From Natronoarchaeum philippinense (lineage in GTDB: Archaea; Halobacteriota; Halobacteria; Halobacteriales; Natronoarchaeaceae): a DNA stretch of 64,000 bases. Shown here one piece after another: positions 15,343 to 55,242 of the stretch. The number at the start of each line of letters is the position of its first letter. Position 1 is the stretch's first letter. Below the pieces are notes generated by a model, which saw only the letters and a program-made list of their open reading frames with translations, was not told the origin of the DNA and made no database searches. A program made the position numbers and the translations under genes. The stretch is from NCBI RefSeq assembly GCF_900215575.1, contig NZ_OBEJ01000003.1:248001-312000 (forward strand). Direction: 5' to 3'.

Positions 15343-15359
15343 GTCCACCAATAGTGGAC
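15343..15359. promoter_or_regulatory. operator copy A1 (GTCYA-N7-TGGAC)
   Basis: GTCCACCAATAGTGGAC. The symmetry extends one base further each side (7-base arms CGTCCAC/GTGGACG). It matches copy A2 at 31001-31017. Confidence 0.65.
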
Positions 15360-15399: not shown

Positions 15400-15419
15400 T
15401 TACAGAGTTACCGATGTAA
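15400..15419. promoter_or_regulatory. palindrome copy C1 (TTACA-N10-TGTAA)
   Basis: TTACA and TGTAA arms flank a 10-base spacer. The start is exactly 57 bases from the start of A1, the same distance as between A2 and C2 at 31001/31058. Confidence 0.6.
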
Positions 15420-15523: not shown

Positions 15524-15540
15524 GTCTAGTTTTGTTGGAC
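15524..15540. promoter_or_regulatory. operator copy B1 (GTCYA-N7-TGGAC)
   Basis: GTCTAGTTTTGTTGGAC, extended by GC on the left and GC on the right to longer arms. Its T-rich centre and half-sites match B2 at 31168-31184. It lies about 60 bases past a TATA-like element. Confidence 0.65.
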
Positions 15541-15767: not shown

Positions 15768-16511
15768 ATGTCTGGAGACCTCGACGATACGAACGCGTTC
15801 GTCGTCGGAGCGAGCCGCGGGATCGGAAGAACGATCGCCGAGGAGTACGCCGCTCGCGGCGCGGATATCGCCGCCCTCGCCCGGTCGGGATCGGCGCTGG
15901 AGGAGTTCGCGGCGTCGCTGCCGACCCGGTGCGTTCCGATCGAGTGCGACGTGCGGGACGACGAGGCCGTCGAGCGCGCCGCGACGACCGCGGTCGACAC
16001 CCTCGGAACGATCGACACCGTCGTCAACAGCGCGGGGACGATCGCACGCGGGCGACTGCACGAGGCGGACGAGGACGACCTGACGGCGGTGATCGACGTG
16101 AACCTCGTCGGCGCGCTCCGGGTCAGCAAGCACCTGCTGCCCGCCCTGATGGAGACGGAGGGAACGCTCATCCACGTCTCCTCGGAAGCGGGATCGGTCG
16201 GCGTTCCGGAGCTACCGACGTACTGCGCCAGCAAGGGCGGCCTCCACGCCGCGGTCCGCCAGCTCGCGGTCGATTACGGTCCCGACGGCGTCTCGGTGGT
16301 GGCGATCGCTCCGGGGACGACGAAGACGTCGATGAACGAGGACGTGCGGGAGCGCGACCCATCGTGGGCCGACGATCGGGCGGCGGGCGTGCCGCTCGGT
16401 CGTCTGGGAGAACCGGAGGATATCAGCGATCTCGCGGCGTTTCTCGCGAGGGATCGGTCGGACTATCTCACGGGCGAGGTCATCCACGTCGATGGCGGGT
16501 CGACGGCCTGA
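15768..16511 (+). CDS. SDR-family oxidoreductase
   Basis: Two hundred forty-seven residues of the classical short-chain dehydrogenase family: cofactor motif GASRGIGR (about 14-21), NSAG in place of NNAG, catalytic Ser in VSSEAGS, YCASK active-site pair, and the C-terminal GEVIHVDGGST. The start at 15768 follows TTATTTGAC by about 27 bases. Candidates by context are a sugar or keto-deoxyaldonate dehydrogenase or a uronate reductase; the substrate is not readable. It is convergent with the IclR gene, 16 bases apart. Confidence 0.8.
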   Translation: MSGDLDDTNAFVVGASRGIGRTIAEEYAARGADIAALARSGSALEEFAASLPTRCVPIECDVRDDEAVERAATTAVDTLGTIDTVVNSAGTIARGRLHEADEDDLTAVIDVNLVGALRVSKHLLPALMETEGTLIHVSSEAGSVGVPELPTYCASKGGLHAAVRQLAVDYGPDGVSVVAIAPGTTKTSMNEDVRERDPSWADDRAAGVPLGRLGEPEDISDLAAFLARDRSDYLTGEVIHVDGGSTA

Positions 16512-16527: not shown

Positions 16528-17289
16528 TCAGTAGTGTTTGGTCTTGAGCTCGACCACGTTGGCGGTGTTCTGGAGCGCCGGGAGGAACTCCTCTTGGATG
16601 CGATCGTCGTCGAACTCGTGTTTCGGCCCCGCCACGGAGATCGCGGCGCCGGCCGTCTCGCCGTTGCTCTCGATCGGGACGGCGACCGACCTGACCCCCT
16701 TGACGCGCTCTTCGTCCTCCACGGCGTACCCTTGGGATCTGACGGATTCGATCTCGCCGAGCAGCTCGTCTTGATCGACGATCGTGTGTTCCGTCGCCCG
16801 CGGGAGCCCGTGACGGTCCGCGATCGCCCGGACCTCCGCGTCGGATTTCTGTGCCAGTATCGCTTTGCCCAGCGCCGTCCAGTGCATCTGGGTGTACTCG
16901 CCCGTCGGCGCGTTGTTGAACACGGCTCCCGTCGGCTCCGTCCGATACAGCATCACCCGGTAGCCGTCCTCCTCGTAGCCGATGGTGGCGACTTCGCTCG
17001 TCGTCTGGGCCAGCTCGTCGACCTCGCTGCGCCCCTCTTGGTAGAGGCTCATGTTGTGTCGGGCCCGGCCGCCGATATTCAGAAACCGGAGACTGAGGTG
17101 GTACTCGCCGTCCCGGTTGATGACGTATCCGATGTCCTCCAGCGTTTTGAGGTAGACGTGGGCCGTGCTCTTCGGGAGGTCCATGTGCTCGGCGAGCTCG
17201 CGGACCCCACACCGTTCGAGTTCCCCCACGCTCTCGATGATCTCGAAGACGTTTTCGACCGCTTGGATTCGATTTGGGTCGTCTGTCAT
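16528..17289 (-). CDS. IclR-family transcriptional regulator
   Basis: About 253 residues from the ATG at 17289 (MTDDPNRIQAVENVFEIIES). A winged-helix domain (10-70, with VRELAEHMDLPKSTAHVYLK as recognition region) precedes the IclR effector domain, ending in VPIESNGETAGAAISVAGP. Haloferax XacR, which controls pentose genes, is of this family. It probably senses a sugar-acid intermediate of the surrounding island. A TATA-like AATTAATAATGG (minus strand) near 17372-17388 and an operator-like palindrome at 17334-17350 just past the expected transcript start suggest autoregulation with a short leader. Confidence 0.88.
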   Translation of the reverse strand: MTDDPNRIQAVENVFEIIESVGELERCGVRELAEHMDLPKSTAHVYLKTLEDIGYVINRDGEYHLSLRFLNIGGRARHNMSLYQEGRSEVDELAQTTSEVATIGYEEDGYRVMLYRTEPTGAVFNNAPTGEYTQMHWTALGKAILAQKSDAEVRAIADRHGLPRATEHTIVDQDELLGEIESVRSQGYAVEDEERVKGVRSVAVPIESNGETAGAAISVAGPKHEFDDDRIQEEFLPALQNTANVVELKTKHY

Positions 17290-17333
17290 TGTGTAGGTGT
17301 GGCGTGGCATGCCGGATATCACTTTCGAAGGTT

Positions 17334-17350
17334 GTCCAACGATACTGGAG
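17334..17350. promoter_or_regulatory. operator-like palindrome in the IclR promoter
   Basis: GTCCA-ACGATAC-TGGAG matches GTCYA-N7-TGGAC at nine of the ten defined positions. It lies 45-61 bases ahead of the IclR start codon, just downstream of its TATA-like sequence, the position expected for repression. Confidence 0.5.
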
Positions 17351-17522
17351 GCGTACTGCCGGTATCCAACACCATTATTAATTATAGTATTGTGCGCTGC
17401 GTTCCGGATCCCGATGCGATCTGTCACGCGTTCTATCCGGCGAAAATCATGGTGCGACGGCGGGATGTCCGCGGGCGCGCGTCGTCCCACCGACGCAACG
17501 TCCCCGCACGATCAGCGGCGTC

Positions 17523-18485
17523 TTACTGTTCGGTCCGTTCCATCAGTCCCCGCATGTACCCGATCGCAAAGAGCCGCCCCTTCGTGTGGTAGCCCGGATT
17601 CGAGTTGTCTTCTCCGACCATCGTCGGGACGTGGTCGGGGCGCATCACCACGTCGTCATCGACGGCCTCTTGGTAGGCCTCCATCGCCGCGAGCATGTCG
17701 TTGGGGCCCTCGTCGTGCCACGTCTCGACGAAGTTGTCGGCGTCGCCCTCGACGTCGCGGAAGTGGACGAAGTTGATGCGGTCGCCGAACCGTCGGATCG
17801 TCTCCGGCAGATCGACGCCCATCGCGGCGAAGTTGCCTTGGCAGAACGTGATCCCGTTGTGTTCGCTGTCGTAGCAATCGAGAACGCGCTGGTACGCCTC
17901 GGGGCTGTTGACGATGCGCGGGACGCCGCCGAGCGACTCCCGAGGGGGATCATCAGGATGGAGGCCGAGTTTCACCCCGGCCTCCTCCGCGACAGGCGTC
18001 ACTTCTTGGAGGAAGTACTCTAGGGCCTCCCAGATTTGCTCGCGAGAAGCGTCGACCGCCTGCTCGGCTCCGTCCCTATGCATCCGATCGTCGGAGTATG
18101 CGGTCACTAGCGATCCACCGCGCGCCTCGACGTGCGCCTCGGTTCGCGCCCAGCGGATGCCGACCATCCAGTCGTAACAGACGACCGGGATGTCGAGCTC
18201 CCCGCAGTGCCTGATAAACTCCTTGAACTCCTCGATGTCCTCGTCGCGACCCTCCAGTCCAAGCCTGACGCGGTCGGTCAGCGGGACGCTCCCCTCGATG
18301 ACGCTGACGTCGAGCCCGGCGTCCTCGTACCAGTTCTTCGTGTGCAACAGGTCGTGGTACGACCAAGACGTTTTGCCGTCACCGATCTCCAAGGTGTGAA
18401 CGACGGCGTTGGTCACGCCCATCTGTTTGGCGAGCTGCCATCTGTCGTCCGGCTGTGGCGGTAAGACTACCGCTAAGTCGACCAT
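17523..18485 (-). CDS. uxuA: mannonate dehydratase
   Basis: About 320 residues from the ATG at 18485 (MVDLAVVLPPQPDD). A TIM-barrel protein of the UxuA family with KLGLHPDDPP, GITFCQGNFAAMG and NFVHFRDVEG carrying the metal ligands (His, Cys, His, Asp). It dehydrates D-mannonate to 2-keto-3-deoxygluconate in glucuronate breakdown. The divergent SDR at 18639 could be the fructuronate reductase that makes mannonate. The in-frame upstream ATG at 18551 gives an unlikely 22-residue extension. 2-keto-3-deoxygluconate kinase and aldolase genes are not in this window. Confidence 0.88.
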   Translation of the reverse strand: MVDLAVVLPPQPDDRWQLAKQMGVTNAVVHTLEIGDGKTSWSYHDLLHTKNWYEDAGLDVSVIEGSVPLTDRVRLGLEGRDEDIEEFKEFIRHCGELDIPVVCYDWMVGIRWARTEAHVEARGGSLVTAYSDDRMHRDGAEQAVDASREQIWEALEYFLQEVTPVAEEAGVKLGLHPDDPPRESLGGVPRIVNSPEAYQRVLDCYDSEHNGITFCQGNFAAMGVDLPETIRRFGDRINFVHFRDVEGDADNFVETWHDEGPNDMLAAMEAYQEAVDDDVVMRPDHVPTMVGEDNSNPGYHTKGRLFAIGYMRGLMERTEQ

Positions 18486-18638: not shown

Positions 18639-19427
18639 ATGAGCGAGACGTTCGACGGAGAGACTGCCATCGTCACGGGTGCATCGAGAGGGATCGGCAG
18701 CGGGATCGCGATCAAACTCGCGGAGCAGGGGGCATCGGTGATCGTCAACTACCGCTCTTCCGAACGGCGAGCGGAATCGGTCGTCGACGAGATCGTGGAC
18801 CGCGGGGGAGAAGCCGTCGCGGTGCAGGCCGACGTGAGCGATCGCGACGACGTGGCGGCGATGGTCGAGGCGACCGTCGATCGCTTCGGCTCGCTGGACG
18901 TGATGGTGAACAACGCGGGGATGACGACGCTGGGTCCGGCCGAAGAGATCGACGTCGAGGACTGGCGGCGGGTGATCGACGTGGACCTGACGGGCGTGTT
19001 CATCGGGTGTCAGGCGGCGGGCCGGCAGATGCAGTCCCAAGCCGACGGCGGGGCGATCGTCAACGTCTCGTCGATGATGGGCGAGATGGGGTTTCACATG
19101 CGGGCGCCGTACTGTGCGGCGAAGGCGGGCGTGATCAATCTCACCCGAACCCTCGCCGTCGAGTGGGCGGAGGACGATATCAGCGTGAACGCGCTCGCGC
19201 CGGGGTTCATCCAGACCGACATCACGGACCAGACGCAGGATTCGGCCGGATACACCGACGACGACATCCGTCGACGCACGCCGATGGCGCGGTACGGCAC
19301 CGTCGAGGAGATGGCCAACTGCGTGAGCTTCCTAGCACGCGGGGACACGTACGTCACGGGCGAGGTGCTTCGGGCCGACGGCGGATGGACGTCCGACGCT
19401 TGGCGATACCACGAAGATCGCGCGTGA
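18639..19427 (+). CDS. SDR-family oxidoreductase, candidate uronate/aldonate reductase
   Basis: Two hundred sixty-two residues: GASRGIGSG cofactor loop (about 15-23), NNAG, catalytic VSSMMGEMG serine, YCAAK pair, and C-terminal GEVLRADGGW. It diverges from the mannonate dehydratase, sharing a 153-base promoter region, so a role as NAD(P)H-dependent fructuronate reductase is the most economical inference. A 2-keto-3-deoxyaldonate dehydrogenase is the main alternative, given the downstream FAA hydrolase and lactate oxidation genes. Confidence 0.78.
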   Translation: MSETFDGETAIVTGASRGIGSGIAIKLAEQGASVIVNYRSSERRAESVVDEIVDRGGEAVAVQADVSDRDDVAAMVEATVDRFGSLDVMVNNAGMTTLGPAEEIDVEDWRRVIDVDLTGVFIGCQAAGRQMQSQADGGAIVNVSSMMGEMGFHMRAPYCAAKAGVINLTRTLAVEWAEDDISVNALAPGFIQTDITDQTQDSAGYTDDDIRRRTPMARYGTVEEMANCVSFLARGDTYVTGEVLRADGGWTSDAWRYHEDRA

Positions 19428-19520
19428 CATCGCCAACTCGGTACTGTCTGAATGGTTGGTGGTGACAACTGCCACATTACAAAGTTTTATATAATTGTGC
19501 CCGGTCGTCTATGATGAACC

Positions 19521-20543
19521 ATGTCAAATGGGTCATCCGTTGTTAGCAGACGCTCGCTGATCAAGGGTATCGGTACGGGCGCTATCGCAGCGACCGCCGG
19601 CTGTTCCGGCCTCACGGGAGGCGGCGGCGGTGGCGGTGGCGTCGACATGACGATCGCCAGTACGTTCGAGCCGGGACACATCTTAGTCCAGACCTCCGAG
19701 ATGTTCAAGGAGAACATCGAGGAAGAGTCGGACGGCGATATTTCCGTCCAAATCAGCGCCGGCGGTGCCTACGGCTCTGAAGACGAGACCGGCGAGATCG
19801 TCAGCCAAGGCGGCGTCGAGGCTCACGCCGCGGGTAGCTTCCCGTACTTCCAGTTCGCGCCCGAGTACTGGTTCTTCGGGTGCCCGTTCGTTCTCTCGAG
19901 CTACGACCAGCTGCTGTCGGTCTTGGAGAGTGACCAGATGCAGGAGGCACACGACGCGCTCGTCGAGAGCGGGAATCAACGCCCCATCGGCCAGCAGATC
20001 TACCGCGGTGCGCGCCACTTCACCTCGAACTCGCCGATCCGCGGCCCGAGCGACGTCGATGGACTCAACCTGCGCCTGCCGGAGCTCGACCCGTGGGTCG
20101 CCATCTGGGAGCAGGTCGGTGCCTCGCCGACCCCGATTGCGCTGGACGAGCTGTACAGCGCGCTCGAACAGGGGACGGCGGACGCATCGGAGGGCGGCGC
20201 GGAGCAGATCAGCGCGTTCAACCTCCACGAGGTCCAGAGCCACCTGAGCCTGACGGGCCACCTGATCGCGAACGGGAACATCTACATCAACGACGACTTC
20301 TACCAGGGGCTCGACGAGACCCACCAAGACATGATCATGGAGGTCGGCCAGTCGGTGACGGAGACCGCCTCGGAGGAATCCCAGTCGAGCGAGGAGGACC
20401 TGATTCAGGAGCTGGGCGAGCAGGGTATGACGATCGTCGAGGATGTCGACACCGAAGCGTTCCAGGAGCAGGCGGCACCGGCAGTCGAGCAACTGTTCGA
20501 AAACACGTGGGCCTTCGACTGGGAAACCGTCCGGAATATGTGA
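19521..20543 (+). CDS. TRAP transporter substrate-binding lipoprotein (DctP family)
   Basis: Three hundred forty residues. The N-terminus has a twin-arginine pair (Arg10-Arg11, SRRSLIKGIGTGAI) and a lipobox ending at Cys28, then a poly-glycine linker, so it is Tat-exported and lipid-anchored. The mature part is a DctP fold; NLRLPELDPWVAIWEQVGAS contains the substrate-carboxylate-binding region, and ALDELYSALEQGTADASEGG is the family signature. TRAP systems import organic acids with a Na+ or H+ gradient; uronates or aldonates fit the context. A TATA-like TTTTATATAA lies about 30 bases upstream. Confidence 0.92.
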   Translation: MSNGSSVVSRRSLIKGIGTGAIAATAGCSGLTGGGGGGGGVDMTIASTFEPGHILVQTSEMFKENIEEESDGDISVQISAGGAYGSEDETGEIVSQGGVEAHAAGSFPYFQFAPEYWFFGCPFVLSSYDQLLSVLESDQMQEAHDALVESGNQRPIGQQIYRGARHFTSNSPIRGPSDVDGLNLRLPELDPWVAIWEQVGASPTPIALDELYSALEQGTADASEGGAEQISAFNLHEVQSHLSLTGHLIANGNIYINDDFYQGLDETHQDMIMEVGQSVTETASEESQSSEEDLIQELGEQGMTIVEDVDTEAFQEQAAPAVEQLFENTWAFDWETVRNM

Positions 20544-20594
20544 CCGGTAGATCCGTAAAGATGATTAGGTGAGCTAGATACTGTTTCACTTACA

Positions 20595-21161
20595 ATGGAA
20601 ATCGATCAATCACTCGACCTGAAGCGGGATCACCTCCTGGACAGGATCATCCTCTACAGCGCGACGGCGCTGTTTACGTCGACGATCGTCCTGACCACGC
20701 TTCAGGTGTTCATTCGGCTGTTGAACCTGCCCACGTTCGGCTTCCTTCACTGGACCCAGCCGGCGGCGCGGTTCGTGCTCGTCATCGCGACGTATCTGGG
20801 TGCTGCCGTCGCCATTCGGAACAACGAGCAGATCGCGATCCAGTTCCTGCTCGAACGGCTCGCGAACTGGAAGCCGTGGCTCGGCTACTTGGTGAAAGTG
20901 CTCGGAAAACTGGTTACCGCCGGCTTCCTGCTCGTCGCCCTCGAAGGGACGGTCATCACGACCATCGATGACTGGGCGACGTCGATCGGTGGAATCGGAT
21001 TCGTCACGTCCGGTCATCTCTACCTCGGGATCGGCATCGGCCTCGCGCTGATGCTGCTCTACACCGCGATCGACCTCGTGGCGCTCGTACGAGAGATCCT
21101 GGCGTGGACGGGCGACGAAACCAGCGGTAGCCAGCTCGAGGAGGGGATGGCCGATGAGTGA
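20595..21161 (+). CDS. TRAP transporter small membrane subunit (DctQ family)
   Basis: One hundred eighty-eight residues with four membrane segments, the usual DctQ topology: 20-42, 55-77, about 92-118 and 132-155. It follows the binding protein by 51 bases and overlaps the large subunit start by 8 bases (ATGAGTGA), so the two membrane subunits are translationally coupled. Confidence 0.9.
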   Translation: MEIDQSLDLKRDHLLDRIILYSATALFTSTIVLTTLQVFIRLLNLPTFGFLHWTQPAARFVLVIATYLGAAVAIRNNEQIAIQFLLERLANWKPWLGYLVKVLGKLVTAGFLLVALEGTVITTIDDWATSIGGIGFVTSGHLYLGIGIGLALMLLYTAIDLVALVREILAWTGDETSGSQLEEGMADE

Positions 21162-22458
21162 GGTGCTCATTATCGGCACTCTGTTCCTCGGGACGCTCTT
21201 GGTCCTGTACGCGCTCGGCGTCTCCGTTGGGATCGCCATGGGCGCCACCTGCGTCATCGTGATGCTATCTCCGTTCGGGCGCGGACTCAACCCCGGGCTG
21301 ATCGCTCAACAGCTGCTCTACGGGCTCAACAGCTTCACGCTGCTCGCCATCCCGTTCTACCTGCTGCTGGGACGGTTGATGAACCGCATCGGGATGACAC
21401 AGCGCATCTTCTCGCTGGCGAACTCACTCGTCGGGCAGTTCCGCGGGGGGATCGCCCACGTCAACATCGTCGCGAGCATGATCTTCTCGGGGATGTCCGG
21501 CCTCGCGGTCGCCGACGCCGCGGGACTCGGTCGCGTCGAGTACACCGCGATGCGCGACCAGGGGTACGAGAAAGACATCTCGCTGGGCGTCACCGGATCG
21601 TCCGCGATCATCGGCCCGATCATCCCGCCGAGCGTGCCGATCATCATCTACGCCGTGCTGGCCGAAGAGTCGATCGGCGAGCTGTTCCTCGGCGGGATCA
21701 TCCCCGGGATCCTCATCGGTATCTTCCTGATGGCGCTCGTCTTCCTGATCGTGCACCTGCGGGGGTACGAGTCCGAGGATTCCTTCGATCTGGGGGATTG
21801 CTGGAAGAGCTTGAAGGAGGCGGTATTCCCGCTGTTTGCCCCGATACTCATCGTCGGCGGCATCCTCTCGGGTATTTTCACCGCCACCGAAGCGGGGGCC
21901 ATCGCGGTCGTCTACACCATCTTCCTCGGGATGTTCGTCTACGACGAACTCTCCCTCCGGGGGCTGTTCGAGGAGCTCCAGTACGGGATGGTCGAGACGT
22001 TCTCGCTGACGTTCATCGTCGGCGTGGCGTCGCTGTACGGCCTCGTCGCGCTCCAGCTGCAGCTGCCGATCCTGATGGCCGAGTCGATCACGAACTTCTC
22101 GGGCGATCCCACGATCGTGATCCTGCTGCTGGTCGGGCTCCTGCTTGTCGTCGGGACGTTCATGGAGACCATCGCCGCGATCACGATCCTCGTTCCGATT
22201 TTCATGCCGATCCTGGAGATTACCGGAATCGATCCGCTCCACTTCGGCATCGTGATGATCCTGACGCTGATGCTGGGTCTGCTGACGCCGCCGTTCGGCG
22301 TCATCCTCTTTGTCCTAGAGAAGGTGACCGACGCGACGCTGGAAGAGGCGATGAAGGCAGTCTTGCCCTACTACGTGCCGATCCTCTTGGTGTTGCTGAT
22401 CACCATCTTCGTCCCGGAGGTCGTCACGTACCCGGTGACCGAACTGATGGGCGGCTGA
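21154..22458 (+). CDS. TRAP transporter large membrane subunit (DctM family)
   Basis: Four hundred thirty-four residues, about twelve membrane segments. Family marks include the early AIPFYLLLGRLMNRIGMTQR, the GMSGLAVADAAGLG and SSAIIGPIIPPSVPIIIYAV segments that form the transport site, and the second-half LTPPFGVILF. It completes the DctPQM transporter encoded from 19521. Confidence 0.93.
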   Translation: MSEVLIIGTLFLGTLLVLYALGVSVGIAMGATCVIVMLSPFGRGLNPGLIAQQLLYGLNSFTLLAIPFYLLLGRLMNRIGMTQRIFSLANSLVGQFRGGIAHVNIVASMIFSGMSGLAVADAAGLGRVEYTAMRDQGYEKDISLGVTGSSAIIGPIIPPSVPIIIYAVLAEESIGELFLGGIIPGILIGIFLMALVFLIVHLRGYESEDSFDLGDCWKSLKEAVFPLFAPILIVGGILSGIFTATEAGAIAVVYTIFLGMFVYDELSLRGLFEELQYGMVETFSLTFIVGVASLYGLVALQLQLPILMAESITNFSGDPTIVILLLVGLLLVVGTFMETIAAITILVPIFMPILEITGIDPLHFGIVMILTLMLGLLTPPFGVILFVLEKVTDATLEEAMKAVLPYYVPILLVLLITIFVPEVVTYPVTELMGG

Positions 22459-22538
22459 GGCGGCCTTCGTTTTCTCCCCTCGTCGCCGGCGCCTGAACCA
22501 ACGGAAACACTTTTTCCGGTTGCCAGTGAGTACCACCC

Positions 22539-23726
22539 GTGAGAACGTTTGAGGGCTACCCGCGGGACGACGGCCCCGCCGGTGTACGAAACTACGTGGC
22601 AGTGATACCGACGTCGGTCACGGCGTCGCCGGTCGCGGCGGAGATCGCCGATCGATCGGCCGAGACCGTCCGAGCGACGCCGCACCAGATGGGGACCGAT
22701 CCGCCGGCGGCGGCTCGCGATCAGGTCGAGCGAACGCTGACGGGCGTCGGCAGCAACCCCAACGTCGGCGCGGCGCTGGTCGTCGATCTCGGCACGGAGG
22801 CGATCGACGCTGACGATATCGCCGACGCGGTGGCGGCGACCGGGCGCGGCGCGGCGACGCTCTCGATCCGCGAGGCGGGCGGGACGGCGGCCGCAGTCGA
22901 GGAGGGAACGGAACTGGCCCGCTCCCTTCGCGAGGAGATCTCCGGCGCGCGCCGGGAGGAACGCGGCGCGGACGAACTAGTCTTCGCCGTCGAGTGCGGC
23001 GGCTCCGACGCGACGAGCGGGATCGCCGCCAACCCGGCCGTCGGGGCGGCCTGCGACCGCTTGGTCCGAGACGGCGGCACGGCGACGTTCTCCGAGACGC
23101 CGGAGTTCATCGGCGCCGAGCACGTCTTGGCCGAGCGGTGCGCGGACGAGGGCGTCAGAGAGCGACTCCTCGATCGCGTCGAGCGCCGGGAGGCCACGGC
23201 CGAACTGATGGGCGTGGACCTGCGAGGCGCGCAGCCGAGCCCCGGCAACCAAGAAGGCGGTCTGACGACCATCGAGGAGAAGAGCCTCGGCGCCATCTCG
23301 AAGGGCGGGACGACCCCGGTCCGCGGCATCGTCGACTACGCCGAGCGGCTCCCGACCGGGGGTGGGTTGGTGCTGATGGACACGCCGGGGTACGACATCG
23401 AGAGCGTCGTCGGCAAGGTCGCCGGCGGTGCGCAGGTCGTCGCCTTCACGACCGGGCGGGGATCAACGACCGGGAACCCGCTGGCACCCGTGATCAAGGT
23501 GACGGGGAACCCGAAGACGGCGGACCGCCTCGCCGCGAACGTCGACGTCGACGCGAGCGACGTGATCGACGGCGAGTCGATCGACGCCGTCGGCGAGCGG
23601 ATCTACGAGACGCTGCTCGCGGTTGCCGGCGGCGAGCGGACCGCGGCGGAGCGCCACCGTCTGGAGGAGTTCGCCGTCAACGAACTCCAGCCGAACGAAC
23701 TCGCGGAGTTGCGGGGTGACGCATGA
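22539..23726 (+). CDS. UxaA/GarD-family large subunit, paralogue A (C-terminal motifs retained)
   Basis: Three hundred ninety-five residues of the altronate/galactarate dehydratase family without the SAF domain. The C-terminal half is canonical: CGGSDATSG (153-161), SETPEFIGAEH, SPGNQEGGLTTIEEKSLG (234-251), DTPGYD and TTGRGS. The N-terminal half has lost its signatures: HQMGTD (49-54) stands where the family has HGTGCG, and DLGTE (83-87) where it has GLGCE. The paralogue at 24037 shows the opposite loss. The GTG start is at 22539, and the stop overlaps the SAF gene by 4 bases (ATGA). Probably one part of a hetero-oligomeric altronate or related acid dehydratase. Confidence 0.82.
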   Translation: MRTFEGYPRDDGPAGVRNYVAVIPTSVTASPVAAEIADRSAETVRATPHQMGTDPPAAARDQVERTLTGVGSNPNVGAALVVDLGTEAIDADDIADAVAATGRGAATLSIREAGGTAAAVEEGTELARSLREEISGARREERGADELVFAVECGGSDATSGIAANPAVGAACDRLVRDGGTATFSETPEFIGAEHVLAERCADEGVRERLLDRVERREATAELMGVDLRGAQPSPGNQEGGLTTIEEKSLGAISKGGTTPVRGIVDYAERLPTGGGLVLMDTPGYDIESVVGKVAGGAQVVAFTTGRGSTTGNPLAPVIKVTGNPKTADRLAANVDVDASDVIDGESIDAVGERIYETLLAVAGGERTAAERHRLEEFAVNELQPNELAELRGDA

Positions 23727-24037
23727 AGGGGACGGTCCTCGGCGACGCGGGGCTGTACATGACGGCCCGGGACAACGTCGTCACGGCTATCGACGACTTG
23801 GAGGCCGGCACGGAAATCCCGCACGACGGCGTGACGGTCGAACTCGCGGAGGCGGTCCCGTTCGGCCACAAGATCGCGCTGGTGGCGATGGAACCCGGTG
23901 ACGCCGTCGTGAAGTACGGCGAGACGATCGGGGAGGCCGTCGAGCCGATCGCTCCCGGCGAGTGGGTGCACACGCACAACTGCGAGAGCAGGCGCGGCCG
24001 AGGCGACCGCGCCGTAGGCGACGGGGAGGTGGCCTGA
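23723..24037 (+). CDS. SAF-domain small subunit of UxaA-like dehydratase
   Basis: One hundred four residues: TARDNVVTAIDDLEAG, then AVPFGHKIALVAMEPGDAVV, KYGETIGEAVEPI and VHTHN. This is the SAF domain that forms the N-terminus of UxaA/GarD or the separate small subunit of split enzymes. It lies between and overlaps both large-subunit paralogues (ATGA at the front, TGATG at the back), so the three are made together. A similar small subunit occurs in sulfolactate sulfo-lyase (SuyA), the main functional alternative. Confidence 0.87.
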   Translation: MKGTVLGDAGLYMTARDNVVTAIDDLEAGTEIPHDGVTVELAEAVPFGHKIALVAMEPGDAVVKYGETIGEAVEPIAPGEWVHTHNCESRRGRGDRAVGDGEVA

Positions 24038-25173
24038 TGTCGGCGCCGACTGGCGTGGCTTCGGACCGCGAGCCGACGCCGTCGTTCGACGGTTACCGGC
24101 GGGAGGACGGGCGCGTGGGCGTGCGGAACCGCGTGCTAGTCGTCCCGTCGGTGATCTGCTCGCACGTCGTCGCCGAACGCGTCGCCGAGAGCGAAGAGAG
24201 CGCCGTCTGCGCTCCGCACGACCACGGCTGCGGGCAGATCGGCGACGACCACGACCAGACCGAACGGACGCTTCTAAATCTCGCCCGCAATCCGAACGTC
24301 GCGGGCGCGACCGTCGTGGGGCTGGGCTGTGAACACCTCCAGAGCGGGCCGTTCGCCGACCGGGTCGCCGAGAGCGGCGTGACGGTCCGCGAGACGGCGA
24401 TACAGGACGCGGGCGGCACCGACCCCTGCGTCGAGAAGGGCGCCGCGGCAACAGCCGATCTGGCGGCGGCCGCGGCGGACGCGGATCGGACTGGCGCGAC
24501 GCTCGCCGACCTCACCGTCGGCGTCGTGAGCTCGGACCTCGACGAGTCGACGCGGACGGTCGCGGATCCGCTCGTGGGCGATACCGTCGACGCGCTAATC
24601 GACGCCGGCGCGCGCGTCGTCGTCGCCGGGACGGATCGTCTCACAGCCCACCGGGACGCGGCAGCCGACCGCGCCGCGACGGCGACCGTCGCCGACTCGG
24701 TCCGGACCGTCGGCGAACGCGACGCCGGCCGCCCCGGGAACGCCCGTCGCGTCGCCCGGCGCGCGGCCGACGCACCGTTCGACGAGATCGTCGGGGCGTG
24801 GGGAAGCGCGAGCGTCGACGAACTCGTCCCGTACGGCGGCCGCGCCTCGACCGGCAGCGGGCTGACGCTGGTCGACTCCCCCTCCCGCTTCGAGGAGGCC
24901 GCGACCGCGCTCGCGGCGGCCGGGGCGTCGGTCGTCGTCCACGTCACCGCGGACGGGGTGCCGACGGGACATCCGGTCGTCCCGGTACTCAAGATGACCG
25001 GCGACGGAGCGACGGCGGAGGCGCTCGCGGACGATATCGACCTCGACGCCCGAGCGGCCGACATCGACGCGGTACTCGGCGAGCTCGGTCGCGTCGCCGG
25101 CGGCGCCCGGACCGCGAGCGAGGAACACGGGCTGACGTCGTTCGCGATCAGTCGCGTCGGGCCGTCGCTGTAG
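24037..25173 (+). CDS. UxaA/GarD-family large subunit, paralogue B (N-terminal motifs retained)
   Basis: Three hundred seventy-eight residues from the ATG at 24037. It keeps the N-terminal family motifs HDHGCG (61-66), NPNVAGATVVGLGCE (85-99) and IQDAGGTDPCVEKG. Its C-terminal half is degenerate: VVSSDLDES (163-171) replaces CGGSDxxSG, RPGNARRVARR (from 232) replaces the SPGN-GGLTTI-EKSLG block, and TTGRGS is gone. The loss is complementary to paralogue A. The frame is intact with haloarchaeal codon use, so this is not a decaying pseudogene by appearance. It probably pairs with A and the SAF subunit in one enzyme. Confidence 0.82.
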   Translation: MSAPTGVASDREPTPSFDGYRREDGRVGVRNRVLVVPSVICSHVVAERVAESEESAVCAPHDHGCGQIGDDHDQTERTLLNLARNPNVAGATVVGLGCEHLQSGPFADRVAESGVTVRETAIQDAGGTDPCVEKGAAATADLAAAAADADRTGATLADLTVGVVSSDLDESTRTVADPLVGDTVDALIDAGARVVVAGTDRLTAHRDAAADRAATATVADSVRTVGERDAGRPGNARRVARRAADAPFDEIVGAWGSASVDELVPYGGRASTGSGLTLVDSPSRFEEAATALAAAGASVVVHVTADGVPTGHPVVPVLKMTGDGATAEALADDIDLDARAADIDAVLGELGRVAGGARTASEEHGLTSFAISRVGPSL

Positions 25174-25302
25174 GGCGGCAGCCGGACCGCCGACGAACGG
25201 CTCCGTTTCCGCGGTCGACGATCCGCGGGCCGAACGGCGACGACCCGAGTGATTCGAGGCGGGGAAAAGAATAATACAGCAACACGTCACGTAGAACACG
25301 AG

Positions 25303-25422
25303 ATGACACTGTTTGAACACGGTTCGGTAGCGGGTCGGCAGCAGACGGCCCGAACGCCCGGCTGCGACGGGCCGGAACGAACCGACGGCACTGCTTGGAG
25401 CACCTCGGAGGCGCCGGCATGA
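25303..25422 (+). CDS. 39-codon leader ORF coupled to the alcohol dehydrogenase
   Basis: The ATG at 25303 lies about 30 bases after AAAGAATAATAC, a good TATA position for a leaderless start. It encodes MTLFEHGSVAGRQQTARTPG and continues to a TGA (25420-25422) overlapping the dehydrogenase ATG (25419). No family is recognisable. It may be a coupling or regulatory leader peptide. Confidence 0.4.
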   Translation: MTLFEHGSVAGRQQTARTPGCDGPERTDGTAWSTSEAPA

Positions 25423-26444
25423 GAGCGGCGCCGCTCGTCAAGGCGGGAACGTTCGAGCCGGAAACCAGGGAGCGCCCGACGCCGGGGCCGTCGGAGGTGC
25501 TCGTCGAAGTGAGTGACGTGGGCATCTGCGGCTCTGACGTCCACTGGTACGAGCACGGCGAGATGGGCGACCGGGTCGTCGAGGACCCGCTGGTGCTCGG
25601 CCACGAGAGCGCCGGGACGGTCGTGGAAGTCGGCGCGGAGGTCGACGACCACGCTGTCGGCGACGCCGTGACGATCGAGCCCGGCGTTCCCTGCGGCGAG
25701 TGCGAGCACTGCCGGCGTGGAGCGTACAACCTCTGTCGGGCGGTCGAGTTCATGGCGACGCCCGGTACCGATGGCGCGTTTCGGGAGTACGTCGCTTGGC
25801 CCGCGGAGTACGTGTACGGTCTCCCGGCGTCCGTCTCTCCCCGCGAGGGGGCGCTCTGCGAGCCGATAAGCGTCGGCGTCCACGCCGTTCGGCGCGCCGA
25901 GGTTGGAATGGGCGATTCGGTGCTCGTCATGGGTGCGGGCCCAATCGGACTCCTCGCCGCCGACGTGGCACGGGCGGCCGGAGCCGCAAACGTGGCCGTC
26001 GTCGACGTCGTCGACTCGAAGCTCGACCGGGCTCTCGACCGCGGCGCAGACCTCGCGATCGACAGCCGCGAGACGAACCCCGCCACGGCGGTCCGCGACG
26101 AGTTCGGCGCGGGCGTCGACGCCGCGATCGAGGCCACCGGAGCGCCGCCCGCGATCGAGGCGGTGCTCGACACGCCCGGGCCGGACGGCACCGCGGTGCT
26201 GGTCGGCCTCGCGCCCGACGCCGAGGTGCCGGTGGACACGTTCGAACTGGTCCGGCGGCAGGTCGACGTGCGGGGGAGCTACCGATTCGCCAACACGTAC
26301 CCGACGGCGATTTCCCTGCTCGCGAGCGGTGACGTGGACGCGGCCGGAATCGTCGACTTCGACCTGCCGCTCGACCGGATCGGCGACGCGTTCGAGCGGG
26401 CCACGGAGCCCGACGTGGTCAAGGGCATGATCTCGACGGACTGA
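25419..26444 (+). CDS. zinc-dependent medium-chain dehydrogenase (sorbitol/threonine dehydrogenase type)
   Basis: Three hundred forty-one residues from MRAAPLVKAG. Catalytic zinc ligands sit in GICGSDVHWYEHG and LGHESAG; the structural zinc is bound by the four cysteines of CGECEHCRRGAYNLC; CEPISVGVHAV holds the conserved Glu; and GAGPIGLLAADVARAAGA is the Rossmann loop. It oxidises a secondary alcohol of a polyol or sugar acid with NAD(P). In this island it may act on an aldonate or on a keto-deoxy acid. It starts within the stop of a 39-codon ORF (ATGA). Confidence 0.87.
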   Translation: MRAAPLVKAGTFEPETRERPTPGPSEVLVEVSDVGICGSDVHWYEHGEMGDRVVEDPLVLGHESAGTVVEVGAEVDDHAVGDAVTIEPGVPCGECEHCRRGAYNLCRAVEFMATPGTDGAFREYVAWPAEYVYGLPASVSPREGALCEPISVGVHAVRRAEVGMGDSVLVMGAGPIGLLAADVARAAGAANVAVVDVVDSKLDRALDRGADLAIDSRETNPATAVRDEFGAGVDAAIEATGAPPAIEAVLDTPGPDGTAVLVGLAPDAEVPVDTFELVRRQVDVRGSYRFANTYPTAISLLASGDVDAAGIVDFDLPLDRIGDAFERATEPDVVKGMISTD

Positions 26445-26504
26445 CCGGGAACTCGACGGATACGCGGCCGAAGATTTATGTTCAAACGGACACCGTGTTT
26501 CGGC

Positions 26505-26933
26505 ATGGTAATCGTCGCAGCTATCAGCGGATCCGAGCAGTCGATGGAGATCGCCGCGCAGGCGGACGAGCTCGCGCGGGCGTTCGACGACGAACTCCAC
26601 CTCGTCCACGTCGTCGAGGAGACCGAGTACACGCGGCTGGTCGAAAAGCAGTCCGGCGCGCGCGAGACGGATTCGGGATCCGTCGAGGAAAACGCCGCCA
26701 CCGCGGCGATGGAGGGGGTCGACGAGATTGTCGATGCCGACTACGAGATCGTCGGCCGCGTCGGGAATCCGAGCAAGACGGTTCTCGACTACGCGGACGA
26801 GGTCGACGCCCGGTACGTCGTCGTCGGGGGCCGGTCCCGTTCCCCGACGGGGAAGGCGTTGTTCGGCAGCGTCACTCAGTCGATCCTCCTGAAGACGGAA
26901 CGTCCCGTCGTGACCATCACGGAGACGAAGTAG
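26505..26933 (+). CDS. universal stress protein (UspA family)
   Basis: One hundred forty-two residues. The fold is given by MVIVAAISGSEQSMEIAAQA, the central DARYVVVGGRSRSPTGKALF and GSVTQSILLKTERPVVTI; the G-2x-G-9x-G(S/T) nucleotide-binding pattern is only partly kept. The ATG at 26505 lies about 27 bases past ATTTATG, so an upstream ATG at 26478 is within the promoter. Stress proteins are often embedded in haloarchaeal catabolic clusters. Confidence 0.82.
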   Translation: MVIVAAISGSEQSMEIAAQADELARAFDDELHLVHVVEETEYTRLVEKQSGARETDSGSVEENAATAAMEGVDEIVDADYEIVGRVGNPSKTVLDYADEVDARYVVVGGRSRSPTGKALFGSVTQSILLKTERPVVTITETK

Positions 26934-26967
26934 CTGATCCGAGTCGACCATGATGTCACAGCCGCGA

Positions 26968-26999
26968 CTAGCTGATCCGGGCGACTGCTCCCCAGCTAG
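26968..26999. promoter_or_regulatory. inverted repeat ahead of the Lut operon
   Basis: CTAGCTG and CAGCTAG, 18 bases apart, lie about 20 bases ahead of the TATA-like ATGCTTATCC at 27017-27027. It is a candidate site for a regulator of lactate oxidation. TAGCTGATCCG also occurs as a direct repeat starting at 26932. Confidence 0.35.
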
Positions 27000-27050
27000 A
27001 ACTGACACGAACATTGCAATGCTTATCCCGATACGCACGAAGGTGGACGT

Positions 27051-27563
27051 ATGAGCACAGGTTCGGTAGAGCAGTTCCAACAGTCGTTGTCGCGTCTAGA
27101 CACCGCGTGGACCGTCGTCTCGCCCGACGATCTGGCGACGACGGTCGCCGACTTGGTCGATCCCCCCGCGGTCGGAGCCGAACTGCCGTTCGACGATCTC
27201 TCGCTCGCCGAGACGCCGGTCACCCTCGGCCCGTCGCCCGCACAGCTCAGGGACGCGGTGACGGGCGTGACGGGATCGCGTATGGGTATCGCCTCGCTGG
27301 GGACGGTCGCCGTCGAGTTCCGAAAAGAGGGCGACGAGTTCGTCGCGCTGTACCCCGAACGACACGTGGTAGTGATCAAAGCGAGCGACCTTCGGTCGGA
27401 CCTCGGGGACGCCTTCGGCTGGATCCGGCGGGAGTTCGAGGCCGATCGACAGTCGTTCATCCTCGCGACGGGACCGAGTTCGACCGGCGACATGGGCGCA
27501 CTCGTACAGGGTGTCCACGGACCCGAACAGGTCCACATCGTCATCGTCAGGGACAATGAGTGA
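27051..27563 (+). CDS. lutC: LutC-like LUD-domain protein
   Basis: One hundred seventy residues with the LUD/LutC pattern: a variable N-terminus, then TGSRMGIASLGTVAVEFRKE, DEFVALYPERHVVVIKASDL, and the C-terminal ILATGPSSTGDMGALVQGVH plus GPEQVHIVIV. It is part of the iron-sulfur L-lactate dehydrogenase LutABC, which oxidises L-lactate to pyruvate. The stop overlaps the start of the LutB-LutA fusion by 8 bases. Confidence 0.87.
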   Translation: MSTGSVEQFQQSLSRLDTAWTVVSPDDLATTVADLVDPPAVGAELPFDDLSLAETPVTLGPSPAQLRDAVTGVTGSRMGIASLGTVAVEFRKEGDEFVALYPERHVVVIKASDLRSDLGDAFGWIRREFEADRQSFILATGPSSTGDMGALVQGVHGPEQVHIVIVRDNE

Positions 27564-29769
27564 ATCAGAACAACTGGATGCCGACCGCATCCGCACGCTA
27601 CTCGAATCGGAGGGTGACGAGATCAAGGAGAACACGCGCCTGTTCAACGCCGAACGGTACGACGCGGTGGAGGCCGTCGGTGAGGACGAACATGAGGACA
27701 ACCGGTCCCGAGCACGGGAAATAAAGGAGGACGCGATCGAGCGTCTCCCGGAACTCATCGAACGGACCAGAGAGGCCGTTGAGGCGAACGGCGGGACGGT
27801 GTACGTCGCCGACGACGCCGCCGATGCGAACCGATACGTTCGCGAGGTCGCGGCCGACGCCGACGCCGACAGCGTCGTGAAATCGAAGTCGATGACGACC
27901 GAGGAGATCGACCTGAACGAGGCGCTGGAGGCCGACGACCTCGATGTCTGGGAGACCGACCTCGGCGAGTTCGTCGTCCAGGTCGCCGAGGAAGCGCCGT
28001 CGCACATCGTCGGCCCGTCGCTCCACAAGTCCCGCGAGGATATCACGGAGCTGTTCGAACGGGAGTTCGACCCGGAAGAGTCGCTCGACTCCGCGGAGAA
28101 GCTGACGGCGTTCGCACGGGAGTACCTCGGCGGGCGCATCGACGACGCGGACGTCGGCATCACGGGCGCGAACTTCGTCATGGCCGACAGCGGGTCGATA
28201 GCGCTGGTGACGAACGAGGGCAACGCCCGCAAGTGCGCGTCGATCCCCGACACGCACGTCGCCGTCGCCGGAATCGAGAAGATCATCCCCTCGGTCACCG
28301 AGCTGGAGCCGTTCGCGGAGCTCATCTCGCGGTCTGCGACGGGGCAGGAGATCCCGCAGTACCTGTCGCTGCTGACGCCGCCGGTCGACACGCCCGCGAT
28401 CGACTTCGACAGCGAGGACGAGCCGAACTTCGGGAACAGCGACGCGGACAGGGAGTTCCACTTGGTGCTCCTCGACAACGGCCGGCGGGCGATGCGCGAG
28501 GACGACGATCTCCGCGAGACGCTGTACTGCATCCGCTGTGGCGCCTGCGCGAACTCATGTGCGAACTTCCAGTCGGTCGGCGGCCACGCCTTCGGCGGCG
28601 AGACGTACACGGGCGGTATCGCCACCGGCTGGGAGGCCGGGATCGAGGGCAACGACGTGGCGGCGGAGTTCAACGACCTCTGTACCGGCTGTTCCCGCTG
28701 CGTGAACGCCTGTCCGGTGAAGATCGACATCCCGTGGATCAACACGGTCGTCCGGGATCGCATTAATCGCGGGAAGGATCCCGGCTTCGACGACATGCTC
28801 GTCGACGGGTTGATCCCTGATGAAGAGGAGAGCGGGACGCCGCTCCGGAAGCGCTTCTTCGGGAACTTCGAGACGATGGCGAAAATCGGGAGCGTGACCG
28901 CGCCGCTCTCGAACGCCGTCGCCTCGACCGGCCTCGCGCGGACGGCGATGGAGTCCGTGCTGGGCGTCGACGCCCGACGCGATCTGCCCGAGTTCGAGCG
29001 CACGACGTTCCGCGACTGGGCCGGGAGCCGCGAGTCCCGCGTCGAGGAGCCCGCCCGTCGCGTCGCGCTGTATCCGGACGTGTACACGAACTACGTGCAG
29101 ACCGAGCGCGGCAAGGCCGCTGTCCGCGTGCTGGAGGCGCTCGGCTGCGACGTCGTCGTCCCCGACGTCGGCGGTTCGGGGCGCGCGCCGCTGTCCCAAG
29201 GGATGATCGCGACGGCCGAACGGAAGGCCGAAGCCGTCGCCGAATCGCTCGACCCGTACGTCGAGGACGGGTACGACGTGGTCGTCGTCGAACCCAGCGA
29301 CCTCGCGATGTTTCGCCGCGAGTACGAAAAACTGCTCCCCGCGGAGGATCACGAGCGACTCGACGAGGGGAGCTACGAGATTCTAGAGTACGTGTTCGGC
29401 CTGCTGGAGAACGGCGCAGACGCCGACGCCTTGCCCGCGGGTGACGGTGACGGCGTCGCGTACCACAGCCACTGCCAGCAGCGAACGCTCGGCCTAGAAG
29501 CGTACACCGAGACGGTGCTGGAGCGGCTGGGGTACGACGTGTTCACCTCCGACGTCGAGTGCTGCGGGATGGCGGGGAGCTTCGGGTACAAAACCGAGTA
29601 CTACGACCTGAGCATGGACGTCGGCGCGACGCTGGCCGACCAGTTCGAGGCGGTCGCCGACGAGCGGACGGTCGTCGCCAGCGGCACCTCCTGTATGGAG
29701 CAACTCGACTCGCTGCTATCGCCGGGGACGCGTCACCCCATCGAACTTCTCGATCCCGCTGGCCGATAG
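27556..29769 (+). CDS. LutB-LutA fusion, iron-sulfur L-lactate oxidation subunit
   Basis: Seven hundred thirty-seven residues from the ATG at 27556. Residues 1-330 are LutB: a LUD domain (MADSGSIALVTNEGNARKCA) and two 4Fe-4S motifs, CIRCGACANSCANF and CTGCSRCVNACPVKI. The C-terminal part (about 490-735) resembles LutA/GlpC: YHSHCQQRTLG and SDVECCGMAGSFG form a complete CCG-type motif. The first CCG repeat of two-repeat LutA appears degraded to VPDVGGSGRAP. With LutC it would oxidise lactate, which points to a pathway releasing L-lactate, such as the diketo-hydrolase route for deoxysugars. Confidence 0.85.
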   Translation: MSESEQLDADRIRTLLESEGDEIKENTRLFNAERYDAVEAVGEDEHEDNRSRAREIKEDAIERLPELIERTREAVEANGGTVYVADDAADANRYVREVAADADADSVVKSKSMTTEEIDLNEALEADDLDVWETDLGEFVVQVAEEAPSHIVGPSLHKSREDITELFEREFDPEESLDSAEKLTAFAREYLGGRIDDADVGITGANFVMADSGSIALVTNEGNARKCASIPDTHVAVAGIEKIIPSVTELEPFAELISRSATGQEIPQYLSLLTPPVDTPAIDFDSEDEPNFGNSDADREFHLVLLDNGRRAMREDDDLRETLYCIRCGACANSCANFQSVGGHAFGGETYTGGIATGWEAGIEGNDVAAEFNDLCTGCSRCVNACPVKIDIPWINTVVRDRINRGKDPGFDDMLVDGLIPDEEESGTPLRKRFFGNFETMAKIGSVTAPLSNAVASTGLARTAMESVLGVDARRDLPEFERTTFRDWAGSRESRVEEPARRVALYPDVYTNYVQTERGKAAVRVLEALGCDVVVPDVGGSGRAPLSQGMIATAERKAEAVAESLDPYVEDGYDVVVVEPSDLAMFRREYEKLLPAEDHERLDEGSYEILEYVFGLLENGADADALPAGDGDGVAYHSHCQQRTLGLEAYTETVLERLGYDVFTSDVECCGMAGSFGYKTEYYDLSMDVGATLADQFEAVADERTVVASGTSCMEQLDSLLSPGTRHPIELLDPAGR

Positions 29770-29863
29770 TCTCCCGAGGCCGTCCGCAGGTAGTCCCGGC
29801 AATCGGGGGATCGTCTACCTCGGGTAACTTCTTTATATCGAGGATCCGATAGCCGAATGTACC

Positions 29864-30958
29864 ATGACCCGGAAGTCTACGGATACGATACGCACAGTCG
29901 ACACCGACCTCTACCGCGTGCCGAACGAGCAGGTCCTCGAGGATGCGACGCAGTCGTTCGACACGCTGGAGATCGTCTCGGTCACCGTGGAGTCGGAGGG
30001 CGCTCGGCGCGGATTCGGATTCACCTACACGATCGGCCGCGGCGGCGCTGCGATCAAGCGCTTCCTCGACGACGAACTCGTCCCGCTACTGGAGGGCCAG
30101 CCGGTCTCCCCCCGTAGGGTGCGGTCGAACTTGCGGGGGAACACGACGTTTGTCGGGCGCGAGGGGATAAGCGAGTTCGCCCTCGCTGCGGTCGACATCG
30201 CGGTCTGGGATCTCCTCGGGAAGATCGCCGGGCTCCCGTTGTGCGAACTCCTCGGCGGGGCTCGACAGGACGTGCCGATGTACGAGACCGATGGTGGCTG
30301 GCTCCAGTACGACGCGGACACACTCGTCGAGAACGCGAAGGGGATCGCCGAGGACGGGTTCGCGGGCATGAAGATGAAGGTGGGATCGTCGGTCGATCGC
30401 GATGTCACGCGCGTGCGTGCCGTTCGGGACGCGCTTCCAGCCGACCTAGACCTGATGCTCGACGCCAACTGCTCGTACACGGTGCCGGAGGCGCGTGACC
30501 TAGCCGGCCGACTCGACGATGCGGCGATAACTTGGCTGGAGGAACCGCTTCCCAAGGGCGACTACACGTCGTACGCCGACCTCCGCGAGCGCATCGACAT
30601 CCCGATCGCCACCGGCGAGAACTTCTACAACGAGACGCAGTTCCGGCAGGTGATCGACCGCAACGCCGTCGATTACCTGCAGCCCGACGTCTGCCGGGTC
30701 GGCGGGATCTCGCCGTGGGTGAACGTCGCCGAACAGGCGGCGGCGACTGGACTCGCCCTGTCGCCGCACTACATCGAGCCGCTCCACGCCCACCTCGCGT
30801 GTGCCTTCGACAACGTCCCGTACATCGAACACCACTCAACCGTGTTGGACGAACTACTCGCCGATCCCGTCGCGGTCGAGGATGGTGAGATACTCCCGCC
30901 CGACCGTCCTGGACACGGGATGGCTTTCGAGGGTGCGGACGCGTACCGGGTAAACTGA
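29864..30958 (+). CDS. enolase-superfamily sugar-acid dehydratase (mandelate racemase group)
   Basis: Three hundred sixty-four residues. Barrel residues are Lys170 and Lys172 in GMKMKVG, metal ligands Asp200 (LDANCSY), Glu226 (WLEEPLP) and Glu252 (ATGENF), and His302 in SPHYIEP. The capping segment GFGFTYTIGRGG resembles L-talarate/galactarate dehydratase-like proteins, but active-site loops alone do not fix the substrate. It is distinct from the XacD-like enzyme at 13908, which has FKIHGW at the base position. Candidates are galactarate, rhamnonate or fuconate. TTTATATCG lies about 30 bases upstream. Confidence 0.82.
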   Translation: MTRKSTDTIRTVDTDLYRVPNEQVLEDATQSFDTLEIVSVTVESEGARRGFGFTYTIGRGGAAIKRFLDDELVPLLEGQPVSPRRVRSNLRGNTTFVGREGISEFALAAVDIAVWDLLGKIAGLPLCELLGGARQDVPMYETDGGWLQYDADTLVENAKGIAEDGFAGMKMKVGSSVDRDVTRVRAVRDALPADLDLMLDANCSYTVPEARDLAGRLDDAAITWLEEPLPKGDYTSYADLRERIDIPIATGENFYNETQFRQVIDRNAVDYLQPDVCRVGGISPWVNVAEQAAATGLALSPHYIEPLHAHLACAFDNVPYIEHHSTVLDELLADPVAVEDGEILPPDRPGHGMAFEGADAYRVN

Positions 30959-31000: not shown

Positions 31001-31017
31001 GTCCATCCATCGTGGAC
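31001..31017. promoter_or_regulatory. operator copy A2 (GTCYA-N7-TGGAC)
   Basis: GTCCATCCATCGTGGAC, with symmetry extending to GCGTCCA/TGGACGC arms. It differs from A1 (15343) at only three of 17 positions, all in the spacer. Confidence 0.65.
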
Positions 31018-31057
31018 GCAATTCAGGGGCGCCAGTCGTAGATCGGCGACCGATGAA

Positions 31058-31077
31058 TTACAATCTTATGTCTGTAA
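31058..31077. promoter_or_regulatory. palindrome copy C2 (TTACA-N10-TGTAA)
   Basis: TTACA and TGTAA arms around a 10-base spacer, starting exactly 57 bases after A2, as C1 does after A1. Flanking bases A and A are also shared. Confidence 0.6.
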
Positions 31078-31167
31078 ATCCACGGCGGTTCTCGGGTATC
31101 TTAATGAATGATAATAAAATACTCTGCGTCCGACTCGTCAATCTGCCCTTCACTGAATTCCAACGGT

Positions 31168-31184
31168 GTCTATTTTTGTTGGAC
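31168..31184. promoter_or_regulatory. operator copy B2 (GTCYA-N7-TGGAC)
   Basis: GTCTATTTTTGTTGGAC, extended by GT on the left and AC on the right. B1 has GC and GC in those places, so the outer pair changes on both sides and symmetry is kept. Confidence 0.65.
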
Positions 31185-31204
31185 ACGCTCCGTTTGCGCC
31201 CCGG

Positions 31205-31451
31205 AGACGCACCCGGCCGGTCGAACGAGAACACCGGTTTGCAGGTCTCGGAGTACAGGAACGCCTCGAACGCCGCCATCGGTGTGCATGCCGGTGATCG
31301 AGAAGTTCTTGCAGACGTTCGACCCGTTCTTGCACTGAAAACAGTCGCCGCAGCGGCGGATCGGTTCCTTGATCTCCTTGTCGACGACCGAGAGACCATC
31401 GACCTCTTCGCCGATTGCGGCGACGGTCCCGGCGTACTCGTGACCCATCAC
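31205..31451 (-). pseudogene. remnant of a zinc alcohol dehydrogenase
   Basis: Read leftward from 31451: [20 protein letters not shown], then IRRCGDCFQCKNGSNVCKNF and SITGMHTDGG, which is the structural-zinc region of a medium-chain dehydrogenase. The first 60 or so residues, with the catalytic Cys, are missing. After HTDGG the frame changes, and AFEAFLYSETCKPVFSFD, which looks like an enzyme C-terminus, follows directly, so about 200 residues have been deleted. It is not a copy of the intact gene at 25419, since the cysteine region differs. Confidence 0.7.
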
Positions 31452-54738: not shown

Positions 54739-54987
54739 TTAGGCCAGTTCCGGCGTCTCGTCGTCGTTGTCCTCGTTCGCCGTGACTTTCGTTGCGAGCA
54801 GGTAGCCGGTGACGGCCATCAGCAGAATGAAGCCGACGATCGTTCCGACCAGCAACTGCCCGCCTTGGGCCGTCAGGCCGCCGTCGGCCGAGTAGCTCGC
54901 GCCGACCGCCATCATCGCACCGATCACGACGGCCAGCCCGCCGACCGAGACGCCGATCTCGATCTTTTGCTCGCGCTCTATGTCCAT
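54739..54987 (-). CDS. 82-residue two-span membrane protein next to priL
   Basis: From MDIEREQKIE, two membrane segments (VSVGGLAVVIGAMMAVGASY and LLVGTIVGFILLMAVTGYLL) and an acidic tail ETPELA. The stop is immediately adjacent to the priL stop, a tight convergent layout. No function known. The 255 bases between its start and the SWIM gene hold no gene I can support. Confidence 0.72.
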   Translation of the reverse strand: MDIEREQKIEIGVSVGGLAVVIGAMMAVGASYSADGGLTAQGGQLLVGTIVGFILLMAVTGYLLATKVTANEDNDDETPELA

Positions 54988-55242
54988 ACCTGTTGGAACC
55001 CCCGGCCCGGCAAAAAGGGCTTCGGTGGCGTTCTCTCGGCGTAAACCGGTCGGCTCACCGCCCGAGACACTACCACTCGTTGGATTCGAGCCAGCCGCGG
55101 CATCGAACCCTCGCACGACCACAAACTGCACCGGAAGTGAAGGGGGTTCGATTGGTCTCTTTTCCCCGAATATCGGCGTATGAGGGATGCTATCCTTATT
55201 TCGACTGGAAGACTTACCCGGCTGGATCCCCTATGACATACT

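Follow-up and report, generated by a model that had tools for sequence, protein, structure and literature searches.

The IclR-family protein encoded in a predicted sugar-acid catabolic island of Natronoarchaeum philippinense very probably binds a site in its own promoter and controls itself, because the predicted site is conserved at the same place in related species. The site (GTCCAACGATACTGGAG; CTCCAGTATCGTTGGAC when read on the minus strand) is palindromic and occupies positions 17334 to 17350 of the 64,000-nucleotide stretch of DNA that we analysed (the window). Its centre is 53 bp before the start codon of iclR, which lies at 17289 on the minus strand. Phylogenetic footprinting among the orthologs and a family-wide test of half-site spacing together strongly support autoregulation through a predicted GTCCA-N7-TGGAC operator.

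Within the window, the site reads GTCCA-ACGATAC-TGGAG and departs from the consensus GTCYA-N7-TGGAC by one base, the last, just as the initial annotation of this DNA had described it in both sequence and position. Compared with the ortholog sites, the copy in the window has degraded slightly, and its imperfect arm reads CTCCA on the minus strand. The exact consensus has four copies in the window, all of them in the island (beginning at 15343, 15524, 31001 and 31168). The genome-wide scan that the initial annotation had proposed finds the exact consensus at eight places in 3.16 Mb, four of them in the island; this enrichment (binomial P of about 9e-8) is partly circular, the consensus having been derived from the same island sites. 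The four exact matches outside the island all lie within long open reading frames, and no fewer than two of these frames encode known proteins (cytochrome bd oxidase I and a pyridine nucleotide-disulphide oxidoreductase). The earlier claim that no such site occurs elsewhere in the window is right for the exact consensus but fails at one mismatch, where 16 matches are found against 7.1 ± 3.2 expected. Because about seven such matches are expected in any window, the 17334 site by itself proves little, and its rarity had been misjudged. One of the other matches (54982 to 54998, GTCCATACCTGTTGGAA) is palindromic to the same degree as the 17334 site and overlaps an apparent start codon; it is probably due to chance.

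The orthologs provide the stronger evidence. As expected of an autoregulated IclR gene, a conserved predicted operator stands in the own promoter of all 11 IclR orthologs of at least 70% identity (70 to 100%, from several genera): each has GTCCA-N7-TGGAC, either exact or with a single mismatch, and its centre lies 53 to 66 bp upstream of the start codon. In three orthologs that were added after the prediction (Haladaptatus pallidirubidus, H. caseinilyticus and Natrinema versiforme, with 80, 74 and 70% identity), the site is present in all three, exact in two, and centred at -53 to -55. Among the sequences compared, the closest named relatives by IclR protein are H. pallidirubidus (80%) and Halalkalicoccus paucihalophilus (75%). 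When conservation over the 11 orthologs is expressed as the mean share of the commonest base per block, the arms reach 95%, the N7 spacer 74%, the flanks 52 to 56% and the BRE/TATA region 80%; the operator is the most conserved block in these promoters, and a GAAA/TATA block is the sole other strong one. The 11 orthologs are related and hence not independent events, yet their flanks have diverged while the arms are unchanged. IclR homologs of 54 to 64% identity are without the site at the expected place, and it is absent upstream of two Haloferax plasmid IclR genes at up to one mismatch.

The seven-base spacing is also seen across the haloarchaeal IclR family. When the 300 bp upstream of each of 120 haloarchaeal IclR genes are scanned for exact half-sites in the form GTYCR-Nk-YGRAC, with k from 0 to 15, 38 sites are found at k = 7 (upstream of 31 of the 120 genes), against 0 to 5 at each other k and 0.66 in shuffles; k = 5 and k = 6 together give five sites. 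Allowing one mismatch, 52 of the 120 genes have a site centred at -35 to -75. A separate set, almost all of it from taxonomic families other than that of the window's organism, gives 15 sites at N7 against a single one at all remaining spacings between N3 and N11; bacterial IclR loci, taken as a control, give too few sites for a comparison. By its sequence, the 17334 site would belong to a general predicted class of haloarchaeal IclR operators, GTYCR-N7-YGRAC. We set aside the genome-wide count of this relaxed pattern as evidence (141 matches against 17 in the reversed control), because many of the matches listed are GC-rich and probably coding. We also reject as proof a correlation between recognition-helix residue V45 and GTCC half-sites, since its p value of 6e-9 over all genes becomes 0.12 once relatives are removed by redundancy reduction.

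The bacterial operators of IclR group 1, GKTYCRYW3-4RYGRAMC, offer the nearest comparison (PMC8222616). They are like the haloarchaeal sites in their half-sites (GTYCR / YGRAC, which GTCCA / TGGAC of the orthologs matches and the window's copy matches with one mismatch), in being palindromic, and in adjoining a regulator gene and a catabolic operon. They are unlike them in the inner spacing, which is 5 to 6 bp in that survey, one of bacteria only (PMC8222616), and 7 bp both at 17334 and in the 38 haloarchaeal sites. IclR autoregulation is a well-known arrangement, and the N7 geometry of the haloarchaeal IclR genes is a variant absent from the bacterial survey.

We turn to the protein and its island. 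The iclR gene (16528 to 17289, minus strand) encodes 253 amino acids, with the helix-turn-helix PKSTAHVYLKTLE; the N-terminal part matches HTH_IclR (PF09339, E = 3e-14) and the C-terminal part IclR_C (PF01614, E = 2e-33). The best NCBIfam matches are the BhcR, PcaR and KdgR subfamilies, of which KdgR too controls uronate catabolism, but the scores of 126 to 142 bits are far under the curated cut-offs of 275 to 350 (for the KdgR equivalog, 126 bits against 275). The gene is flanked by an SDR oxidoreductase (SDR1, 15768 to 16511, plus strand) and by the mannonate dehydratase UxuA (17523 to 18485, minus strand). The remainder of the island (18639 to 30958, plus strand), assigned from family matches and synteny, includes a second SDR protein (SDR2), the TRAP transporter DctPQM, two GarD/UxaA-like dehydratases, an ADH, a USP, a LUD/Fe-S protein and an MR_MLE dehydratase; FAA hydrolases, an ALDH, Gfo/Idh proteins and further MR_MLE dehydratases are also encoded in the island. 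Such a gene content fits hexuronate or aldarate breakdown. The gene order is largely retained in three related genomes (G008, of the same genus, G002 and G001). In G002 and G001 the SDR1 ortholog has a predicted operator about 70 to 80 bp before its start, and these extra operators are conserved along with the island synteny. In the window, the central divergent promoter between uxuA and SDR2 has no recognisable site, so uxuA stands there with a promoter but without an operator. In strain YIM A00010 (L040:5338-8615), uxuA appears to be fragmented beside iclR, and a second uxuA copy near the fragmented one has two operator-like sites upstream.

The position of the operator relative to the core promoter bears on the sign of regulation. 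Between the operator and the iclR ATG stands a BRE/TATA-like element (CGAAA-GTGATAT, 17316 to 17327, minus strand), whose CGAAA (17327 to 17323) begins 6 bp from the operator edge; its GAAA/TATA block lies about 27 to 30 bp before the ATG and is conserved in 11 of 11 orthologs. In haloarchaea the BRE has the sequence CGAAA, and leaderless transcripts make up 72% of the coding transcripts of Hfx. volcanii (PMC4983044). In the 28 IclR genes whose start codon is clear, the AT content peaks 26 to 35 bp before it, as expected for leaderless starts, and we infer that the iclR promoter is leaderless as well. Since a conserved BRE/TATA stands between the site and the ATG of a leaderless promoter, the operator adjoins the core promoter on its upstream side. 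The initial annotation had set the site just past the presumed transcript start, which is probably wrong; its proposal of autoregulation stands on the ortholog conservation and the family-wide spacing, with the position and rarity corrected and with binding by the protein as its presumptive part. An operator upstream of the BRE/TATA is a feature of activators, and the 17334 site has this arrangement, which suggests activation or promoter-adjacent control and not a block downstream of the start.

That positions 17334 to 17350 are the operator of the adjacent IclR-family protein is, on sequence evidence, a reading that we hold with good confidence, and this confidence applies to the operator and not to the sign of regulation. 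Weighing against it are the imperfect copy in the window, the absence of the site at the expected place in homologs of 54 to 64% identity, the empty promoter between uxuA and SDR2, and the loss of the V45 correlation on redundancy reduction. On the sign, activation appears somewhat likelier than repression, because every haloarchaeal IclR protein so far studied has been an activator. XacR, GacR, RhcR and MscR are IclR activators in, or acting on, haloarchaeal sugar catabolic clusters (PMC11519228), as the present protein would be; the role of MscR comes from a deletion mutant and the other three are cited there as activators. It is possible, if doubtful, that the protein represses its own gene from the same operator, a variant in sign whose probability overlaps with that of the main reading. 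Some members of the IclR family are repressors, and autoregulation is general in the family (PMC8222616); the xacR promoter is reported to contain a negative element (PMC6085418), and an operator abutting the BRE could block TFB. Repression could also follow if, as the placement in the initial annotation would imply, the site lay past a start at about 17358, which an AT-rich stretch upstream (17374 to 17389, in the window and G008) could serve. This stretch, however, shows little conservation once more distant orthologs are compared, whereas the GAAA/TATA block is kept in all 11, and the AT peak at -26 to -35 in IclR genes speaks for leaderless starts instead.

The site might instead belong to another transcription factor, such as an IclR paralog, that controls the island together with iclR. 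Five IclR-like genes were found in the genome with this IclR as query, and paralogs have similar GTYCR-N7-YGRAC sites; but the paralogs mostly have GTTCR sites beside their own genes, and in the different genera the GTCCA-type pairs go with this ortholog group and its island, which makes another owner unlikely. A chance one-mismatch match, to be reckoned with when about seven are expected per window, is contradicted by the ortholog alignment, where the site keeps its position in 11 genes and conservation is much higher in the arms than in the flanks, and we consider it extremely improbable.

Returning to the preferred reading, in which the site is the operator of the island's own IclR protein, the protein would most likely regulate itself and the island through this class of sites. 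In the presumably leaderless iclR promoter, an IclR dimer would bind GTCCA-N7-TGGAC as an inverted repeat immediately before the BRE/TATA, and the same protein would bind the related sites elsewhere in the hexuronate/aldarate catabolic island. Once it has bound a presumed sugar-acid ligand, IclR would most likely help to recruit TFB/TBP, and this recruitment would activate iclR and genes of the island.

The exact sites of the island form two modules. Module 1 has site A at 15343 to 15359 (GTCCACCAATAGTGGAC, conserved in G008) and site B at 15524 to 15540 (GTCTAGTTTTGTTGGAC), and module 2 has site A at 31001 to 31017 (GTCCATCCATCGTGGAC, conserved in G008, G002 and G001) and site B at 31168 to 31184 (GTCTATTTTTGTTGGAC), all four matching the consensus exactly; the distance between A and B in module 2 is 166 to 169 bp in four genomes. 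A second palindrome, TTACA-N4-TA-N4-TGTAA, is found at 15400 to 15419 in module 1 (TTACAGAGTTACCGATGTAA) and at 31058 to 31077 in module 2 (TTACAATCTTATGTCTGTAA), so that both modules share the order site A, TTACA-N10-TGTAA (centred 58 bp on) and site B. Genome-wide, TTACA-N10-TGTAA occurs at five places and the control at none. In 631 kb of IclR loci, which overlap so that some sites are counted more than once, the TTACA/TGTAA pair gives 53 matches at spacing 10 against 0 to 2 at each other spacing, and across nine genomes 26 of 75 matches are no more than 500 bp away from an IclR gene, against 0.24 expected. The palindrome is thus strongly specific in its spacing and enriched at IclR loci of haloarchaea.

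In the relatives examined, genes converge with their ends on module 2 (31001 to 31184). The module's right-hand neighbour in the window looks like what is left of a zinc alcohol dehydrogenase gene (31170 to 31451, minus strand), of which G008 and G002 have a much longer copy at the same place. The module contains no conserved ORF and has no Rfam match, and we reject a small ORF or a known RNA as its explanation.

To our knowledge, an operator has been described for only a small number of archaeal activators. With the N7 spacing as its mark, the class described here gives a concrete predicted operator code for the large family of haloarchaeal IclR regulators, and where this operator stands with respect to the BRE/TATA is relevant to the question of how regulators of bacterial type work at a promoter of eukaryote-like type. 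The second palindrome, TTACA-N4-TA-N4-TGTAA, suggests that sugar catabolism has an additional regulator. We lean slightly towards a picture in which haloarchaeal IclR proteins as a group would use GTYCR-N7-YGRAC, a geometry missing from the bacterial list, and another factor would bind the equally spacing-specific second palindrome at many of their loci, the two together making up a two-factor cis-architecture for sugar catabolism in the haloarchaea.
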